The notes under the pieces were generated by a model. It saw only the letters and a list, made by a program, of their open reading frames with translations, was not told the origin of the DNA and ran no database searches. A stretch of 64,000 nucleotides of DNA from Albidovulum litorale (GTDB lineage Bacteria; Pseudomonadota; Alphaproteobacteria; Rhodobacterales; Rhodobacteraceae), in assembly GCF_025751495.1 (NCBI RefSeq), contig NZ_JAOWKZ010000001.1, forward strand, positions 565,920 through 629,919, read 5' to 3'. Positions 5,366 to 47,603 of the stretch are shown here, piece after piece. A program made the translations under genes and the position numbers. Every line of letters begins with the position of its first letter. Position 1 is the stretch's first letter.

Positions 5366-6301
5366 CTACAAGCTTTCATCCGGCACTGCCGCGCCGCGCG
5401 TCGGCGTATTGCGGCCTTTGAACCACTCCCGGATGAAATCGAGGAACACCCGAATTCGGGTCGCCATAAGGTGACGGTGCGCATAAACCGCGAAAACCGA
5501 TTGAGGTTCAGTCTGAAACCCGGGCAGAACCTGGATCAGCCGCCCCGCCGAAATCTCCGGCTCGGCAATGTAATCGTGCATGAGCGAGAGGCCATGCCCT
5601 GCCAGAACTGCCCCAAGCTGGGCACGGAAGGCATCAACGCTGAACCCTTCGGGGACACGGTATTCGACAGGACCGTCCGGCGTCTGGAGGGTGTGAACGT
5701 GACCCCAACTACCCGTGAAAAGCTTTACAATTGGGCGTCCTTTCAGTTCCTCCAGATCGGTCGGACAGCCGTGCGCGCTCACGTAACCGGGTGCTGCAAC
5801 GAAAATAAGCCGGTAGTCGAGGACCTTGATCGCCTGAAGCGTGGAGTCGGGCAGCCCGCCAACGCCTATGCGAAACGCGATATCCACATGTTCCTGAATG
5901 AGGTCCACGGTCCGGTTTGAAATACCGAGTTGAACTTGAACGCCCGGATGCTTGCCAAGAAACGCCGCGATGGCCGGCGGCAGCAGTTCATTGCCAAAAG
6001 CGACCGACGAACTGAGCGTGATCCGGCCACTCAGGACACGGTGACGCGCTCGCATCATCTCTCTTAGCGCATCAATTTCATCCAGTATCGCCTCGCCTCT
6101 TTGCAAGAAGACCTGTCCCTCTTCAGTTAGCGCGAGACGCCGCGTGCTGCGGTTGAAGAGGCGAACCCCGAGGTTGGATTCGAGATCCGACACGATCCTG
6201 CTTACCGAGGGCGGCGACAGATTGAGCGCGCGGCCCGCTGCCGCGAAGCTTCCCTGATAGACGATCTCGCCCATCACCCTCATGGCCAGAAGCATATCCA
6301 T
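5366..6301 (-). CDS. LysR-family transcriptional regulator
   Basis: DNA-binding regulator of 311 residues. The N-terminal winged helix-turn-helix (about 1-60) includes GSFAAAGRALNLSPPSVSRIVSDLESNLGVRLF, written here only in part as its key SFAAAGRALNLSPPSVSR stretch, and RLFNRSTRRLALTEEG. A LysR substrate-binding domain follows (about 90-295). It belongs to the CrgA/AaeR-like group by general appearance. Base composition and codon use are less GC-rich than in flanking genes, suggesting acquisition. An AT-rich intergenic region with a TATTCCA/TGGAATA dyad lies just upstream. The ligand and targets are unknown; the only adjacent divergent ORF is a small hypothetical. Confidence 0.92.
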   Translation of the reverse strand: MDMLLAMRVMGEIVYQGSFAAAGRALNLSPPSVSRIVSDLESNLGVRLFNRSTRRLALTEEGQVFLQRGEAILDEIDALREMMRARHRVLSGRITLSSSVAFGNELLPPAIAAFLGKHPGVQVQLGISNRTVDLIQEHVDIAFRIGVGGLPDSTLQAIKVLDYRLIFVAAPGYVSAHGCPTDLEELKGRPIVKLFTGSWGHVHTLQTPDGPVEYRVPEGFSVDAFRAQLGAVLAGHGLSLMHDYIAEPEISAGRLIQVLPGFQTEPQSVFAVYAHRHLMATRIRVFLDFIREWFKGRNTPTRGAAVPDESL

Positions 6302-40927: not shown

Positions 40928-41242
40928 ATGACCACATTCGACGACCGCGAGAACGCTTTCGAGAACAAGTTCGCTCATGACGAGGAAATGAAGTTCAAGG
41001 CCGAAGCGCGTCGCAACAAGCTTCTCGGCCTCTGGGCGGCCGGGCTCATGGGCAAGTCGGGCGACGATGCCGCGGCCTACGCAAAGGAAGTGGTCGCCGC
41101 CGATTTCGAGGAAGCGGGCGATGAGGATGTCTATCGCAAGGTCGCCGGTGATCTCGGCGCCTCGGCCAGCGAACAGACGATCCGCGCCAAGATGGCCGAG
41201 CTGATGATCGAGGCCAAGCGCCAGCTCATGGACGAGGCCTGA
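40928..41242 (+). CDS. DUF1476 / F1-ATPase inhibitor zeta-type protein
   Basis: A 104-residue helical protein of the DUF1476 family. The opening FDDRENAFENKFAHDEEMKFKAEARRNK (core FDDRENAFENKFAHD) is the inhibitory N-terminal segment described for the zeta subunit of Paracoccus denitrificans F1FO-ATP synthase, which blocks ATP hydrolysis. The rest is a four-helix bundle. That this copy inhibits ATPase is inferred from family membership. Divergent from purC; a hairpin follows it. Confidence 0.9.
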   Translation: MTTFDDRENAFENKFAHDEEMKFKAEARRNKLLGLWAAGLMGKSGDDAAAYAKEVVAADFEEAGDEDVYRKVAGDLGASASEQTIRAKMAELMIEAKRQLMDEA

Positions 41243-41273
41243 GGCCCGACCGCACCCGATCGCCATAAGGTCC

Positions 41274-41294
41274 GGACCGCCGTCAAGGCGGTCC
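41274..41294 (+). terminator. terminator-like hairpin after DUF1476
   Basis: GGACCGCC and GGCGGTCC form an eight-bp perfect stem with a five-base loop, 32 bases after the stop. The T-run is weak. Confidence 0.5.
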
Positions 41295-41483
41295 TATGCC
41301 ATTGGCCCTGAGCGTACCCATACAGCGAACTTGGCAATGAGCGACCTTGTGGACCGGCCGCGTTTTCGGCGGATTCACGATCATCATGAGAAAGATCGGT
41401 TTGAAAACCGCCCGCCGAAATGGCACATCGGGGCAAACGGGGACGCGACTGCCCCGGTACCGCATTGATGAAAGGCTTTCCCG

Positions 41484-42497
41484 ATGAGCGACCCGCTTTC
41501 CCGCCTCCTGGCGACGCGCGACTGGCTGCTGGCCGACGGCGCGACCGGCACCAATCTCTTCAACATGGGGCTGACTGCGGGTGAGGCGCCGGAACTGTGG
41601 AACACCGACAAGCCGGACAATATCCGTACGCTCTACAAGAGCGCGGTGGATGCCGGGTCAGACATCTTCCTGACCAACACCTTCGGCGGCAATGCAAGCC
41701 GGATGAAGCTGCACAATGCGCAGGGCCGGGTGCGCGAGTTGAACCGGATCGGCGCGGAACTGGGGCGCGAAATCGCCGATGCGGCGGGCCGCACCGTCAT
41801 CGTTGCGGGCTCCATGGGCCCGACGGGCGAGATCATGGCGCCGATGGGCTCGCTGACGCATGAGATCGCGGTCGAGATGTTCCACGAACAGGCCGAGGGG
41901 CTGAAAGAGGGCGGCGTCGATGTGCTCTGGGTGGAGACGATCTCCGCGCCAGAGGAATATGCCGCCGCCGCCGAGGCCTGCGGCCGCGCGGGCATGCCCT
42001 GGTGCGGCACGATGAGCTTCGACACCGCCGGGCGCACAATGATGGGCATGACCTCAGCCGCGATGGCCGCGATGGTCGAGAAGCTGCCGAACCCGCCCCT
42101 GGCTTTCGGCGCCAATTGCGGCGTGGGGGCGGCGGACCTCATGCGCACCGTGCTTGGCTTCGTCGCGGCGGGCCCCGAACGGCCGATCATCGCCAAGGGC
42201 AATGCCGGCATCCCGAAATACCATGACGGCCATATCCATTATGACGGCACGCCGGACCTGATGGCCGAATATGCCGTGCTCGCGCGCGATGCGGGCGCCA
42301 CGATCATCGGCGGCTGCTGCGGCACGATGCCCGAACATCTCGCCGCGATGCGGGAAGCGCTTGAGACCCGCCCGCGCGGGGCACGCCCGACCCTCGACGA
42401 GATCGCGGCAAAGCTCGGCGGCTTTTCTTCGGCCTCGGACGGCACCGGCGACGACGCGGCTCCGGGGCGCGAACGACGCGGCCGCCGGCGCGGCTGA
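41484..42497 (+). CDS. bmt: homocysteine S-methyltransferase (betaine/split MetH type)
   Basis: A 337-residue zinc methyltransferase of the homocysteine-binding barrel family. Opening DGATGTNLFNMGL, the SMGPTGE loop, and zinc-ligand cysteines in FGANCGVGA and GGCCGTMPEH are all present. The C terminus is a charged, Arg-rich tail. It could use betaine, or serve as the homocysteine half of a split cobalamin-dependent methionine synthase with the corrinoid protein encoded at 44889. From memory, roseobacters use such a split enzyme. Start ATG at 41484 follows GAAAGG. Confidence 0.9.
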   Translation: MSDPLSRLLATRDWLLADGATGTNLFNMGLTAGEAPELWNTDKPDNIRTLYKSAVDAGSDIFLTNTFGGNASRMKLHNAQGRVRELNRIGAELGREIADAAGRTVIVAGSMGPTGEIMAPMGSLTHEIAVEMFHEQAEGLKEGGVDVLWVETISAPEEYAAAAEACGRAGMPWCGTMSFDTAGRTMMGMTSAAMAAMVEKLPNPPLAFGANCGVGAADLMRTVLGFVAAGPERPIIAKGNAGIPKYHDGHIHYDGTPDLMAEYAVLARDAGATIIGGCCGTMPEHLAAMREALETRPRGARPTLDEIAAKLGGFSSASDGTGDDAAPGRERRGRRRG

Positions 42498-42671
42498 ATC
42501 ACGCGAGGCGCGTTATCTGCGCCGCCTCGCACGCCGCGGGTTGCCCATGGCGCGATCCCGCGAACAGGTCGATTGACTTGGACTGATTCTGCGCCGGTCC
42601 GGGCCTGCTTTGGGCTATTTTGCCATTCGTGTTACACTATGCTGACCGCCCCCCGGAGGGAGGATACAGCG

Positions 42672-43568
42672 TTGCACCTGCGCCTCGTCGTACAAATTCG
42701 ATTGCTTTTTTTGGTGGTTCTGATGCCCGGCATGGCGGCAGCGCAGAATCTGGTTTCCCTTGCCTCCTCTGGCGATATGACAGGCCTGAAGGCGGCATTG
42801 CCCGCAGAGTCGAACCCGGACCCGGAAACGCTCGCCAAACCGCTCTACTTTGCATCCCAGCGTGGACAGGACGAGGCCGTGGACTACCTGTTATCGGTAG
42901 GCGCCAACCCTGACTCTACGACTGAATTCGGCACCACGCTCGGGATCGCAGCGCGGAACAACCACACCGGGATCGTTGCCACCCTGCTTGCTGCCGGTGC
43001 CGATCCGAACCTGCCCGGCGGCGAAGATTTGACGATGCCGCTCCATGAGGCCGCCGAGCGTGGCGCAATCGAATCCGCCCGCCTCTTGCTGGGACACGGC
43101 GCCGATGTGAATGCGGTTACCCTTCGATACGGTTGGCCCGCAATTCAGTATGCAGGATCGAAGGACCGAAGCGAGATGGTCGCGTTTCTGCGGGACATGG
43201 GCGCCGGTCCGGCGCCAGTGGATGCGCTCACGCCGGGGGAACTTGAATCGGCCGACCCGGAGGAAGGACGCGTGCTAGCCTACGAATGCGGCGGGTGCCA
43301 TGGCCTGACACCCGGCGAAATCAACACAGGCCAACATCCCGGCCCCAACCTGGTCGGCGTGGTAGGCCGGACCAAGGCGTCGGTCGAAGGCTTTCCCTAT
43401 ACCGAGGAGATGAAGGCACAGACGGGAAACTGGACCCCCGAAGACCTCAACGTTTTTCTCGCCGATCCATTCAATATCGTACCCGGAACCGACATGACCC
43501 GTGGCGGTCAGCCTGATCGCGCCGCGCGGATCGCCATCATTGCATACCTCGCCAGTCTTACGCCCTAG
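42672..43568 (+). CDS. secreted ankyrin-repeat/cytochrome c fusion
   Basis: A 298-residue periplasmic protein. TTG at 42672 is chosen because a strong GGAGGGAGGA site is eight bases before it and a clean signal peptide (cut after A24) starts there. Ankyrin repeats cover about 33-180 (SSGDMTGLKAALPA, SQRGQDEAVDYLLSVGANPD, ARNNHTGIVATLLAAGADPN, AERGAIESARLLLGHGADVN, then a degenerate one). A cytochrome c domain follows at about 195-298 with haem motif CGGCH (206-210) and a distal Met near 275 (PGTDM). It should be an electron carrier joined to a protein-binding scaffold. The partner is unknown. Confidence 0.88.
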   Translation: MHLRLVVQIRLLFLVVLMPGMAAAQNLVSLASSGDMTGLKAALPAESNPDPETLAKPLYFASQRGQDEAVDYLLSVGANPDSTTEFGTTLGIAARNNHTGIVATLLAAGADPNLPGGEDLTMPLHEAAERGAIESARLLLGHGADVNAVTLRYGWPAIQYAGSKDRSEMVAFLRDMGAGPAPVDALTPGELESADPEEGRVLAYECGGCHGLTPGEINTGQHPGPNLVGVVGRTKASVEGFPYTEEMKAQTGNWTPEDLNVFLADPFNIVPGTDMTRGGQPDRAARIAIIAYLASLTP

Positions 43569-43640
43569 AAACGAAAGAATTGCGCAGATCTGAAGATTTT
43601 GCAGCATCTGTTGCACAATATGTGCGTTCAAGACCGCAAG

Positions 43641-44723
43641 TCAGAAAAGCGAAAGCTGATCGCCGGGCCTCGGCGGCGGGGCAAAGGCGGAACAATCGAG
43701 GTCAGGCAGGTCATGCGCCAAACCCAGCCGTTTCGTGGCAATCGCGAAACGGTGGGCGATCAGATCGGCATGCAGCCCCTCGCCCCGCATCCGCCGGTCC
43801 CAGTCTGGGTCATAGTCCTTGCCACCCCGCATCTCGCGCAGGCGGTTCATGACATGCGCCGCCCGGCCCGGCTCGGCTCGCGCCAGCCAGTCGCGGAAAA
43901 GCTCCGCCACCTCATGCGGCAGGCGCAAGAGTATCCAGCTTGCCGCCGTGGCCCCCGCTTCCGCGGCGGCGGTCAGAATGCGCTCCATCTCCGGCTCGGT
44001 CAGAACCGGGATCACGGGGGAAACCATCGCCCGGACCGGCACCCCTGCCCCGGCCAAGGCCCGGATCATCGCCAGCCGCCGCTCCGGTGTGGGCGCGCGC
44101 GGTTCCATCCGCCGGGCAAGGCGCGCGTCAAGTGTCGTCACCGACACGCCCACCTGCACCAGCCGCCGAGCCGCCATGCCGCTCAAGATATCCAGATCGC
44201 GCTCGATCAGCGCCCCCCGCGTGATGATCGTCACCGGGTGATTCCACGCCGACAGAACCTCCAGCATCCGCCGCGTGATCCGGTAGCGCTGTTCGATCGG
44301 CTGATAGGGGTCGGTATTGGTGCCGATGGCGATCGGCGCGACCTTGTAGGACTTGCGACCCAGTTCCCGTTCCAGCACCTCCGGTGCCGTCGGCCTCGCC
44401 ACCAGCTTCGTTTCGAAATCGAGCCCCGCCGACAGGCCCAGATAGCCATGGCTAGGCCGCGCATAACAATAGATGCAGCCATGCTCGCAGCCCCGGTAAG
44501 CATTGAGGGAACGGTCGAAATTCAGGTCCGGAGAGGTCACCGGATTGATCACCGAACGCGGTCGTTCCTCGCTGACCTCGGTCCGCGCCACCCGCTCTTC
44601 CTCGGCAATCTCCCAGCCGTCGTTTTCCGCCACCCGCGCATAGGGCTCAAACCGGCCCGCCGCATTACTCACGGCACCACGCGCCTTCAGGCGCAGAAAG
44701 GGATCGGGGGGCGGCAAGGACAT
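43641..44723 (-). CDS. PA0069-family radical SAM protein
   Basis: A 360-residue radical S-adenosylmethionine protein of the PA0069/Rv2578c type. The 4Fe-4S cluster cysteines are in YRGCEHGCIYCYARPSH (CxxxCxxC), and the TIM-barrel strands NTDPYQPIEQ, TIITRGALIERD and VSVTTLD follow. The C terminus carries PPRPGDQLSLF, typical of the group. Its reaction is unknown; relatives have been linked to DNA repair by similarity to spore photoproduct lyase. Divergent from the corrinoid protein gene. Confidence 0.9.
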   Translation of the reverse strand: MSLPPPDPFLRLKARGAVSNAAGRFEPYARVAENDGWEIAEEERVARTEVSEERPRSVINPVTSPDLNFDRSLNAYRGCEHGCIYCYARPSHGYLGLSAGLDFETKLVARPTAPEVLERELGRKSYKVAPIAIGTNTDPYQPIEQRYRITRRMLEVLSAWNHPVTIITRGALIERDLDILSGMAARRLVQVGVSVTTLDARLARRMEPRAPTPERRLAMIRALAGAGVPVRAMVSPVIPVLTEPEMERILTAAAEAGATAASWILLRLPHEVAELFRDWLARAEPGRAAHVMNRLREMRGGKDYDPDWDRRMRGEGLHADLIAHRFAIATKRLGLAHDLPDLDCSAFAPPPRPGDQLSLF

Positions 44724-44888
44724 GGTACGAAATTAGAACATTTAGCGAACATGAATCAAGCACGACCGCAACCGTTACCGCCACCTTGTCGCTCTCTGTC
44801 GCCGAATGCGCGGGCTATGTCGCAAATCGCCAAGTGATGTGGCAACATTGGCCGCATTACGGGCGCAAGAACCGCCAGGAGACATGCT

Positions 44889-45590
44889 ATGGCCGACGAA
44901 GAAGAAATCATCCTTTCCGAGCTCGACGACGAAGAGCTCGTGCTTCAGATGCACGACGACCTCTATGACGGTCTCAAGGAAGAGATCGAAGAGGGCGTGC
45001 GCATCCTTCTGGACCGAGGCTGGGCACCCTACGACGTGCTGACCAAGGCGCTCGTGGCCGGCATGACCATCGTTGGCGCCGACTTCCGCGACGGTATCCT
45101 CTTCGTTCCGGAAGTGCTTCTCGCCGCGAACGCGATGAAGGCCGGCATGGCGATCCTGAAGCCGCTTCTGGCCGAAACCGGCGCGCCGAAGGTCGGCAAG
45201 ATGGTGATCGGTACCGTCAAGGGCGACATCCACGACATCGGCAAGAACCTCGTCGGCATGATGATGGAAGGTGCGGGTTTCGAAGTCGTCGACATCGGCA
45301 TCAACAACCCGGTCGAAAACTACATCGCCGCGCTTGAGCGGGAAGAGGCGGACATCCTCGGCATGTCGGCGCTTCTCACCACCACGATGCCCTACATGAA
45401 GGTCGTGATCGACACGATGAAGGAAAAGGGCATGCGCGACGACTACATCGTGCTCGTCGGCGGCGCGCCGCTGAACGAAGAATTCGGCAAGGCCATCGGT
45501 GCCGACGCCTATTGCCGCGATGCGGCCGTCGCGGTGCAGACCGCGAAGGACTTCATCTCGCGCAAGCACAACAAGCTCGCCGCTGGCTGA
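44889..45590 (+). CDS. corrinoid (B12-binding) methyltransferase protein
   Basis: A 233-residue corrinoid protein like MtbC/MtmC or the cobalamin module of MetH. It has an N-terminal helical cap (1-100) and a Rossmann-like B12-binding domain with the DxHxxG motif at D113, H115 and G118 (GDIHDIGKN), plus GMSALLTTTMPYM and VGGAPLNEEF in the loops that embrace the cofactor tail. It carries no methyltransferase domain, so it must work with partners such as the homocysteine methyltransferase at 41484. Followed by an intrinsic terminator. Confidence 0.93.
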   Translation: MADEEEIILSELDDEELVLQMHDDLYDGLKEEIEEGVRILLDRGWAPYDVLTKALVAGMTIVGADFRDGILFVPEVLLAANAMKAGMAILKPLLAETGAPKVGKMVIGTVKGDIHDIGKNLVGMMMEGAGFEVVDIGINNPVENYIAALEREEADILGMSALLTTTMPYMKVVIDTMKEKGMRDDYIVLVGGAPLNEEFGKAIGADAYCRDAAVAVQTAKDFISRKHNKLAAG

Positions 45591-45612
45591 GTTTTAGGGA
45601 ATGCTCCCTGTC

Positions 45613-45650
45613 GGCCCCGCAGGCATATGGCCTCGCGGGGCCTTTTTCTT
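45613..45650 (+). terminator. intrinsic terminator of the corrinoid gene
   Basis: GGCCCCGC with AGG pairs with CCT and GCGGGGCC around a CATATGG loop, followed by TTTTTCTTT. It lies 22 bases after the stop. Confidence 0.9.
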
Positions 45651-45711
45651 TCCGGTGACTTCACATCCGGCCCCGATGGACACAGATAGAAGGGGAAGGG
45701 AAATAACGGCC

Positions 45712-45885
45712 ATGCCACGCGTCTTGTTGATCCTCGTCCTCGTTCTCGTCGCTGCCGCGTTGACGATAGCCGCCGCCGCTGCGGTCAGTGCAACCGGCCT
45801 TGTCCCGCCCGCCATCGCGGCACTGTCCGGTGTCGCACTGATGGCGCTCGCGCTTCTCGTCCGGTTTCTGGGGGGCAAGTCGTGA
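45712..45885 (+). CDS. mini membrane protein coupled to DUF1638
   Basis: A 57-residue protein that is almost all hydrophobic: two helices (about 4-28 and 32-52) joined at GLVPPA. The last codons overlap the GTG start of the DUF1638 gene (GTGA), which is strong evidence of a real coupled gene despite its size. AAGGGGAAGGG lies upstream at a long spacing. It is encoded between the corrinoid and DUF1638 genes but after the corrinoid terminator. No family recognised. Confidence 0.65.
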   Translation: MPRVLLILVLVLVAAALTIAAAAAVSATGLVPPAIAALSGVALMALALLVRFLGGKS

Positions 45886-46508
45886 TTCCTTCCGACAAGG
45901 TCCTGACCGAGGAGGGCATTGGTCCCGCGCACAAAGGCCGCATCCTGCTGATCGCCTGCGGCGCGCTCGCGCGCGAGATCGTCGACCTGAAAGAGGCCAA
46001 TGGCTGGACACATCTCGACCTCACTTGCCTGCCCGCGAAATACCACCTCTGGCCCGAGAAGATCACCGAGGCCGTGACCGAGGCGGTCGAAAAGCACCGC
46101 GATTCCTATGACGAAATCTTCGTCGTCTATGCCGATTGCGGCACCGGCGGCGGGCTGGAGGCGCGCTGCGCCGAGCTTGGCGTCAACATGATCCCCGGAC
46201 CGCATTGCTATTCCTTCTTCGAGGGCAACGACACCTTCGCCGCGCGCGAAGAGTTCACCGCCTTCTACCTCACCGACTTCCTCGTCCGTCAGTTCGACGC
46301 CTTCGTCTGGAAACCGATGGGGCTCGACCGACACCCCGAACTCCGGGACATGTATTTCGGCAATTACGAGAAACTGGTCTACCAAGCCCAGACCGACGAC
46401 CCCGCACTCGACGCCAAGGCCGAGGATTGCGCGAAACGCCTTGGCCTCGCCTATGAACGCCGCTTCACCGGATATGGCGATCTGAAGACCGAACTCGCAA
46501 AGTTGTAA
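45882..46508 (+). CDS. DUF1638 family protein
   Basis: A 208-residue protein of DUF1638, a family that in many genomes sits next to corrinoid methyltransferase genes. It starts with GTG overlapping the stop of the mini membrane protein gene. Visible motifs are LLIACGALAREIVDL, LTCLPAKYHLWPEKI and VVYADCGTGGGLEARC followed by PGPHCYSFFEG; the conserved Cys and His residues suggest a metal or corrinoid contact. Function is unproven; a role in cobalamin-dependent methyl transfer is inferred from position. Confidence 0.9.
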   Translation: MIPSDKVLTEEGIGPAHKGRILLIACGALAREIVDLKEANGWTHLDLTCLPAKYHLWPEKITEAVTEAVEKHRDSYDEIFVVYADCGTGGGLEARCAELGVNMIPGPHCYSFFEGNDTFAAREEFTAFYLTDFLVRQFDAFVWKPMGLDRHPELRDMYFGNYEKLVYQAQTDDPALDAKAEDCAKRLGLAYERRFTGYGDLKTELAKL

Positions 46509-46529
46509 CCGCCGGGGCTGGGGTATCCG

Positions 46530-47603
46530 TCATCCGATCCGCCCACCGAACCAGCGCGCGACGCTCACCGACAGGATGATCCTGAGAAGGTGATGCGCGG
46601 TCACGTAGAGGATCGACATCTTCAGGCTGAGCGCGATCAACCCCATCTCCACCAGACCACCCGGCGCGAAGGCCAGAAAGACAGCGCGCACCGGTTCGCC
46701 CGCCACCGGCGCAAGGGCGACGGAGAAGAGGACCGCGCCCCCAATGGTCACGCCCGCATTCATCACAGCAAGGCGCAGGGCCACCAGAATCCGCCCCTTC
46801 GGCATGCCCGCAAAGCGCACCCCCAGCGATGTGCCGATCACCACCTGCGCCGCCGCCAGCATCCAGCCGGGCGGCACGCCCTCGGTCCAGCCCGCCATAT
46901 GGGCCGCCGCCGACAGAAGGATCGGCCCCAGCACATGACCGGCGGGCAGGCGCAGGCGCAGGCCGACGATGGCCCCGACAACGGCGCAGAAGGTCAGAAT
47001 CGCCACATCCCCGATATGTAACGGCGCTCCCGCCACCGCCGCTCCCCCGGCGGACCCGACCGCATGGCCCTCCATCAGCGAAAAGGCGACCGGCACCAGA
47101 ACGATGGTCAGAATGAGCCGCAGGAATTGCAGCATCGCCAGCATCTGCACATCGGCGCCAGCCTCCTCGCCCATCTGCACGGTCTCGACAAGACCGCCCG
47201 GAGCGGTGCCGTAAAGCGCGGTGACCCGATCCACCCGGCCCGTCGCGGTCAAAAGCCGGAAGCCGAGGTAATGCACCAGCGGAATGAAAACGCAGAGCGC
47301 GGCGAGCGAGGGCAGCCAATGCGCGGCTTCCCCGACAATCTCCGGCCGCGCGGCCCCGCCGATGGCGATGCCGATAATCGGGATGACCAGCATCCGGATC
47401 TTCTGCGGCGCCTGCGGCAGATGGCCCAGTGGCTTCAGCCCGGCAATCGCCGCAGCCCCCACAGCCAGAAGCGAACCGAGAAGCATCGGCAGCGGCAGAT
47501 GCAGCGCCTTCGCGACAAAGCCGCCTGCAAAGCCTAGAACATAGGTCAAAACCACCGTCGGCCAGTGCGGTACGCCGAAAAACGAAGTGAGGCGGGGCGT
47601 CAT
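46530..47603 (-). CDS. AbrB-family (COG3180) membrane protein
   Basis: A 357-residue inner-membrane protein made of two homologous halves of about five or six helices each. LLGSLLAVGAAAIAGL, TALYGTAPGGLVETVQMGEEAGADVQMLA and the repeat-two counterpart FLAFAPGGLVEMGLIALSL are marks of the AbrB/ammonia-monooxygenase-like family (named by error; these are transporters, not regulators). The paired APGGLVE motifs are the best sign of internal duplication. The substrate is unknown. It converges on the DUF1638 gene. Confidence 0.88.
   Translation of the reverse strand: MTPRLTSFFGVPHWPTVVLTYVLGFAGGFVAKALHLPLPMLLGSLLAVGAAAIAGLKPLGHLPQAPQKIRMLVIPIIGIAIGGAARPEIVGEAAHWLPSLAALCVFIPLVHYLGFRLLTATGRVDRVTALYGTAPGGLVETVQMGEEAGADVQMLAMLQFLRLILTIVLVPVAFSLMEGHAVGSAGGAAVAGAPLHIGDVAILTFCAVVGAIVGLRLRLPAGHVLGPILLSAAAHMAGWTEGVPPGWMLAAAQVVIGTSLGVRFAGMPKGRILVALRLAVMNAGVTIGGAVLFSVALAPVAGEPVRAVFLAFAPGGLVEMGLIALSLKMSILYVTAHHLLRIILSVSVARWFGGRIG

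Follow-up and report, generated by a model that had tools for sequence, protein, structure and literature searches.

The locus described here raises the question of how a bacterium makes methionine when its homocysteine methyltransferase and its corrinoid protein are encoded as separate genes, and of what is contributed by the two genes that follow the corrinoid gene. It occupies positions 41484-46508 of a 64,000-nucleotide stretch of Albidovulum litorale DNA (the window; contig C3, 565,920-629,919), and comprises mtgE, mtgC, a gene for a DUF1638 protein and, overlapping the start of the latter, a gene for a 57-residue protein that we call the mini protein. We consider it probable that the locus belongs to a known kind of split, cobalamin-dependent methionine synthase of the family Rhodobacteraceae, and that its DUF1638 protein helps RACo to reactivate the cobalamin of MtgC. 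Since split synthases of this kind are known, the locus adds one more genome to them, and the remaining interest lies with DUF1638 and with a new small-protein family. The features concerned are as follows.

41484-42497, + strand: mtgE, homocysteine S-methyltransferase module of the PGA1_c13370 / SPO1884 type (PF02574, 213.3 bits; NCBIfam NF005718)
44889-45590, + strand: mtgC, free-standing corrinoid (cobalamin-binding) protein (PF02310, PF02607)
45613-45647, + strand: terminator-like hairpin (45613-45642) with its T run, 3' of mtgC
45712-45885, + strand: mini protein, a 57-residue, two-helix membrane protein of a family without a Pfam or NCBIfam model
45882-45885, + strand: GTGA, four-base overlap of the mini stop codon and the GTG start of DUF1638
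45882-46508, + strand: DUF1638 protein, proposed corrinoid reactivation partner (PF07796, 115.8 bits; cut-off 27)

Gene content of the split synthase

The first-pass annotation of this DNA had proposed a split cobalamin methionine synthase without an intact metH, and its gene coordinates and identities hold: they agree with the Pfam and NCBIfam matches, and mtgE and mtgC lie 2.39 kb apart. PF02574 is the sole Pfam domain of the mtgE product, which is a separate single-module protein, and NF005718, a model named betaine--homocysteine S-methyltransferase, matches it with 610.9 bits against a cut-off of 338. The mtgC product carries the PF02607 cap and PF02310 binding domains and no other Pfam domain. 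It is related to, and not a member of, the two NCBIfam models for MtgC (glycine betaine-specific corrinoid protein), with scores below both cut-offs (NF047996, 195.8 of 370 bits; NF047995, 180.2 of 310). In most loci of the family, mtgC is the upstream neighbour of DUF1638, at 78-90% identity.

A genome search for metH and metE had been set beforehand as a test of the split synthase, and neither gene was found. In the genome (4,054,431 bases, with completeness rated at 99.99%), neither PF02965, the MetH reactivation domain, nor PF01717, the MetE C-terminal domain, has a match; among 14 known genomes used as controls, 7 matched the first model and 10 the second. The window likewise holds no metH. 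Two proteins in the genome match PF00809. The stronger match (L001) looks like a dihydropteroate synthase (FolP), and the other is MtgD-like (93.8 bits) and is encoded 25 kb upstream of the window, at C3 540,715-541,674 (L002:1429-2388). Directly 5' of this gene is a 307-residue gene (L002:478-1401, + strand) without a Pfam match at 1e-3, whose product resembles methylenetetrahydrofolate reductase by eye, comparable to the metF2 that adjoins mtgD in R. pomeroyi. The genome encodes one RACo/RamA-like protein, outside the window, with Fer2, linker, middle and C-terminal domains (PF14574, 287.3 bits), and a single DUF1638 gene.

Our comparison with published systems draws on the available passages of Price et al. 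(2018; PMC5764234) and Mausz et al. (2025; PMC12478193). In Phaeobacter inhibens DSM 17395, methionine is made by three separate proteins, a homocysteine methyltransferase, a pterin-binding protein and a corrinoid protein, and mutants in these genes are rescued by methionine, as are mutants in the genes for the RamA-like and DUF1638 proteins (PMC5764234). The present genome shares all five proteins, a radical SAM gene adjoining mtgC and the lack of PF02965, and the order methyltransferase, radical SAM, corrinoid, DUF1638 is common to the locus and to P. inhibens tags c13370-c13340 (PMC5764234). Mutants of Phaeobacter (PMC5764234) and Ruegeria (PMC12478193) have shown MtgC, MtgD, MtgE, RACo and DUF1638 to be needed in those bacteria. 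The statement in the first-pass annotation that roseobacters divide methionine synthase among separate polypeptides agrees with what has been published for P. inhibens and R. pomeroyi (PMC5764234, PMC12478193). Its statement that the role of DUF1638 was undescribed does not stand, because Price et al. (2018) found PGA1_c13340 to be required for making methionine and suggested that it acts in B12 reactivation, without giving a specific mechanism (PMC5764234). In Ruegeria pomeroyi DSS-3, MtgC and MtgD of the MtgBCDE system have a double use, in methionine synthesis and in glycine betaine demethylation (PMC12478193). Given the seven MTTB-family genes of the A. litorale genome, it is possible that MtgC could serve betaine demethylation here as well. 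Elsewhere in the available literature passages on DUF1638, an S. meliloti protein is merely listed, and these passages mention neither a kinase fusion nor a small protein. The split core and the requirement for DUF1638 are thus already known, and the mini family, the tracking of DUF1638 with RACo, the kinase fusions and the hairpin are added here.

DUF1638 as a proposed partner of corrinoid proteins

Among 249 Pseudomonadota genomes, DUF1638 occurs in 41 and the RACo C-terminal domain (RACo_C_ter) in 39, and 38 have both. RACo stands alone in one genome (G283) and DUF1638 in three (G149, G156, and G192), where it consists of weak matches within kinase-fused proteins of 590-846 residues. In these three proteins and in a second copy from G128 (L230-L233), a DUF1638-like N-terminal region is followed by HATPase domains; the Pfam DUF1638 score exceeds the cut-off in three of the four and reaches 26.1 against 27 in L233. 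Corrinoid and URO-D genes adjoin the kinase gene in L230, L231, and L233, and L232 lies at a contig end. The histidine-kinase-like architecture of the four proteins raises the possibility of a corrinoid-based sensor.

A similar neighbourhood surrounds the free-standing DUF1638 genes of more distant bacteria. In 13 of 14 such loci (9 kb each), a corrinoid gene lies on the same strand (at 2.4 kb in L246), and a RACo gene is present in 10. Five of the 14 are operons of RACo, corrinoid, URO-D and DUF1638 genes followed by sensor genes. Like the A. litorale locus, these operons have DUF1638 adjoining a corrinoid gene, and RACo is included in all five; they differ in having a URO-D-type methyltransferase, a different kind, and signalling kinases where mtgE is found here, just as the four fusion loci differ in that DUF1638 forms the N-terminal part of a kinase-like protein. 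As these neighbourhoods show, it is corrinoid proteins that DUF1638 accompanies, rather than the chemistry of homocysteine or betaine. Given the fusions to kinases and the operons with URO-D, the hypotheses narrow to partnership with the corrinoid protein. A search of viral contigs gave 10 pattern matches, none of which was a DUF1638 relative.

Six residues of DUF1638 (Cys26, Cys49, His55, Cys86, His108, and Cys109) show no variation in either of the two family alignments, which comprise 28 and 62 sequences. In ten distant free-standing proteins, Cys26, His55, Cys86, and Cys109 are retained in all ten, and Cys49 and His108 in six each. The four kinase fusions all have Cys86 and Cys109, and three have Cys26, the fourth protein starting later as called; none has His55, and a cysteine is found a few residues away by eye. 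The tracking with RACo, the neighbourhoods and the kinase fusions suggest that DUF1638 is a corrinoid-protein partner in which three cysteines are nearly universal; the residues that stand out are Cys26, His55, Cys86, and Cys109. The AlphaFold2 model of DUF1638 (mean predicted local distance difference test score, pLDDT, 91.9) puts Cys26 at the end of strand 21-26, Cys49 at the end of strand 45-50, and Cys86 four residues beyond strand 78-82; on this model, the conserved residues would form a predicted site for metal, cluster, or thiol chemistry. A sequence search of the PDB with the DUF1638 profile gave 21 matches (best E 0.37) and no usable relative, and a Foldseek search with the model gave nothing at E ≤ 0.001 (best E 2.6e-3). 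In a VIA comparison, residues 19-105 of the model matched the nitrogenase-like P-cluster subunit 9d9u_B (Z 8.0; root-mean-square deviation 2.6; 84 aligned residues), a score at the edge of the Z < 8 range rated common, followed by racemases at Z 6-7.5, levels likewise rated common. We therefore claim no fold for DUF1638. The spacing of Cys26 and Cys86 may resemble that of P-cluster ligands.

In the mechanism that we favour, methyl-tetrahydrofolate would be the methyl donor from which MtgD methylates the cob(I)alamin of MtgC, and homocysteine would then receive the methyl group through MtgE. Cobalamin on MtgC that becomes oxidised to cob(II)alamin would be reduced back by the ATP-dependent, ferredoxin-domain RACo/RamA protein, and DUF1638 may assist in this, with the site around its three near-universal cysteines serving to dock it on the corrinoid protein. 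The mini protein would be a co-transcribed neighbour with an independent function, outside the synthase. The docking, the role of the cysteine site and the co-transcription are proposals of ours.

Several points weigh against help from DUF1638 to RACo as the explanation. The PF02965 domain of MetH is also encoded in 17 of the 38 genomes that have both DUF1638 and RACo, so that the pair there serves something other than, or besides, methionine. RACo occurs without DUF1638 in G283 and in a family genome that is 97% complete (G090), and the three genomes whose only DUF1638 is kinase-fused have no RACo, which indicates that the need of DUF1638 for RACo is not universal. Moreover, the co-occurrence of the two was counted without correction for relatedness, and the structure matches give no ligand or partner for DUF1638.

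The same three genomes, together with the corrinoid genes beside DUF1638 in 13 of 14 distant loci, would fit a role directed at the corrinoid protein and not at RACo, such as that of a chaperone that loads or stores cobalamin and takes no part in reductive reactivation. We regard this as rather unlikely, since RACo is found in all 38 DUF1638 genomes outside those three and in P. inhibens DUF1638 and the gene for the RamA-like protein show cofitness (PMC5764234). Much less probable is a locus that does not encode a methionine synthase at all, MtgE being a genuine betaine-homocysteine methyltransferase. The NCBIfam family name speaks for it, but in P. inhibens methionine synthesis depends on the orthologue together with the corrinoid and pterin genes (PMC5764234), residues and mutants argue that the homocysteine methyltransferase of this type is MtgE (PMC12478193), and neither a MetH nor a MetE domain was found that could otherwise do the job. 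Reactivation by RACo with the help of DUF1638 thus remains our preferred explanation. It may be only one instance of something broader, which we put forward tentatively: DUF1638 could be a general corrinoid-docking domain with a metal or iron-sulphur site made of three Cys and a His/Cys, which works with RACo in delivering electrons to, or opening, oxidised corrinoid proteins (MtgC here, URO-D-partnered proteins elsewhere), and whose kinase fusions would read the state of the corrinoid as a signalling system.

A small-protein family between mtgC and DUF1638

The first-pass annotation had described the mini protein as translationally coupled to DUF1638, with an implied partnership between the two. 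That it is a real gene stands; the partnership is weakened. A hidden Markov model (HMM) trained on 27 relatives, with the window protein left out, matched the window protein at E 2.7e-8 (Z=1000). The comparison used 166 distinct mtgC-DUF1638 pairs, i.e., 190 loci less 5 duplicates and 19 without mtgC in range, and 110 of the 114 DUF1638 match places in the family were read (the other four were those of G083 and G058, both full, and two fragments of G032). The HMM found a mini gene between mtgC and DUF1638 in 87 pairs, 45 of 70 in the locus set whose genomes supplied the training members and 42 of 96 in the other; in the latter, L038 and L071 are identical to training members, which leaves 40 of 94 held out. 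By gap length, mini was found in 0 of 58 gaps shorter than 170 bases, 69 of 76 gaps of 170-500 bases and 18 of 32 longer gaps. The count of 87 is a lower bound, because seven of the 76 intermediate gaps are unmatched and two of these (L037 and L092) hold hydrophobic small open reading frames (ORFs).

The mini protein is only 42% identical to its closest listed relative, where mtgC is 99% and DUF1638 86% identical. This rapid change would suit a chance hydrophobic reading frame or a leader of the DUF1638 message, a reading that we nevertheless judge extremely improbable. The HMM matched 87 of 250 ORFs against 0 of 250 antisense control ORFs from the same stretches, and the gene survives away from DUF1638. 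In addition, the ratio of non-synonymous to synonymous substitution (dN/dS) was 0.02-0.55, i.e., below 0.6, in all 38 unsaturated pairs among 43 close pairs, which share sequences and are not independent; the other five were saturated. Comparison of these sequences thus identifies the mini gene as real and as a member of a fast-evolving, new small-protein family. No Pfam or NCBIfam family matched the window protein up to E=1, and 30 aligned members gave scattered single weak matches. The proteins range from 49 to 73 residues, and 84 of 87 have two hydrophobic segments; in the structure model, helices span residues 2-27 and 33-54 (mean pLDDT 80.6). Lys and Arg average 0.63 before, 0.14 between and 2.28 after the hydrophobic segments, a distribution which suggests that both ends of the protein may lie in the cytoplasm.

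Does the mini protein belong to the synthase? It was matched in 52 of 120 family genomes, once in each: 47 matches are within 2 kb of DUF1638, one adjoins mtgC on another contig, and four are in genomes without DUF1638. DUF1638 is missing from eight of the 120. In four of these eight (99-100% complete), MetH scores above the cut-off and RACo is absent, and exactly these four keep mini, which in L253 and L255 still adjoins the radical SAM gene; the stretches read around mini in the four gave no match to mtgC, a genome-wide search not having been made. In the other four DUF1638-less genomes, RACo is present and MetH gives no match above the cut-off (completeness is 74-82% in three; the fourth is G090). 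From these patterns of gene loss, we conclude that mini is a neighbour with its own task and not a part of the synthase, and that it can outlive loss of the enzyme.

The alternative is that mini and DUF1638 act on MtgC as a membrane-anchored complex, which would account for the 47 close matches and for the overlap of the DUF1638 start by 41 of 87 mini genes, by exactly four bases (+4 offset, as in the window) in 20. We think it quite unlikely. Besides its retention in the four MetH genomes, mini has no recognisable copy in 79 of 166 pairs, and at least 31 changes between presence and absence are needed on a FastTree tree of the 166 loci (46-63 with shuffled labels). Mini and DUF1638 are separated by about 300 bases in at least 13 loci, with a YbjQ-like gene in the seven read by eye, for one of which Pfam bears this out. 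Outside the family, 18 of 27 DUF1638 match places, chosen by us, were read, and none of their 1189 small ORFs matched mini. These observations carry a caution: the tight overlap in this genome suggests a partner, whereas the patterns of gene loss say otherwise.

Gaps between mtgC and DUF1638 have other occupants as well. The YbjQ_1 (putative heavy-metal-binding) gene lies at L128:5691-6017 and also in L129, L162, L168, L171, L185, and L198, and the mini proteins of such loci are longer (71-73 residues) with an acidic tail. In Tateyamaria-type loci (L153, L163, and L167, each at 5465-6010), a 181-residue gene, thioredoxin-like by eye, fills the gap and there is no mini, and L173 and L187 have a methyltransferase-like gene there. 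In P. inhibens, tag c13350 is followed directly by c13340, leaving no annotated gene between them (PMC5764234), in contrast to the hairpin and mini gene found here; in R. pomeroyi, one tag is skipped between mtgC (SPO2160) and DUF1638 (SPO2162).

Expression signals and neighbouring genes

The GC-rich hairpin and T run 3' of mtgC have counterparts elsewhere, as terminator-like sites were found in 45 of 87 mtgC-mini stretches and in 17 of 47 gaps of 40-200 bases that lack mini, vs. 4% of shuffles; the other 42 mini loci had no such site in the same scan. At the locus itself (41200-46700), a terminator scan gave five sites against a shuffle mean of 4.2, so that the terminator reading rests on the 87-locus comparison. 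A promoter scan of the same region gave no sites, the overall fold of the 130-base mtgC-mini stretch is unexceptional (z -1.55; 12 of 200 shuffles as good), and Rfam gave no matches up to E=1 in 41000-47000. The arrangement suggests that mtgC may be made in excess of the downstream genes, or that mini and DUF1638 may form a separate unit, and the hairpin would qualify the operon assumed by Price et al. (PMC5764234). The overlap of mini and DUF1638 is compatible with the translational coupling that had been proposed.

Two further genes lie between mtgE and mtgC:

42573-43568 (longest ORF), + strand: ankyrin-cytochrome c gene (Pfam)
43641-44723, - strand: PA0069-family radical SAM gene, adjoining mtgC

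The best DUF1638 match among cultured, named organisms was Defluviimonas sp. WL0002 (84%), which places this genome in the Rhodobacteraceae. The PA0069-family gene is kept beside mtgC in 60 of 80 loci read; in P. inhibens, the neighbouring radical SAM gene is unimportant for methionine (PMC5764234). The fusion of ankyrin repeats to a cytochrome c domain was matched in none of these 80 loci, 61 of which have mtgE, so that it seems to have been inserted, in this lineage, between the radical SAM gene and mtgE.

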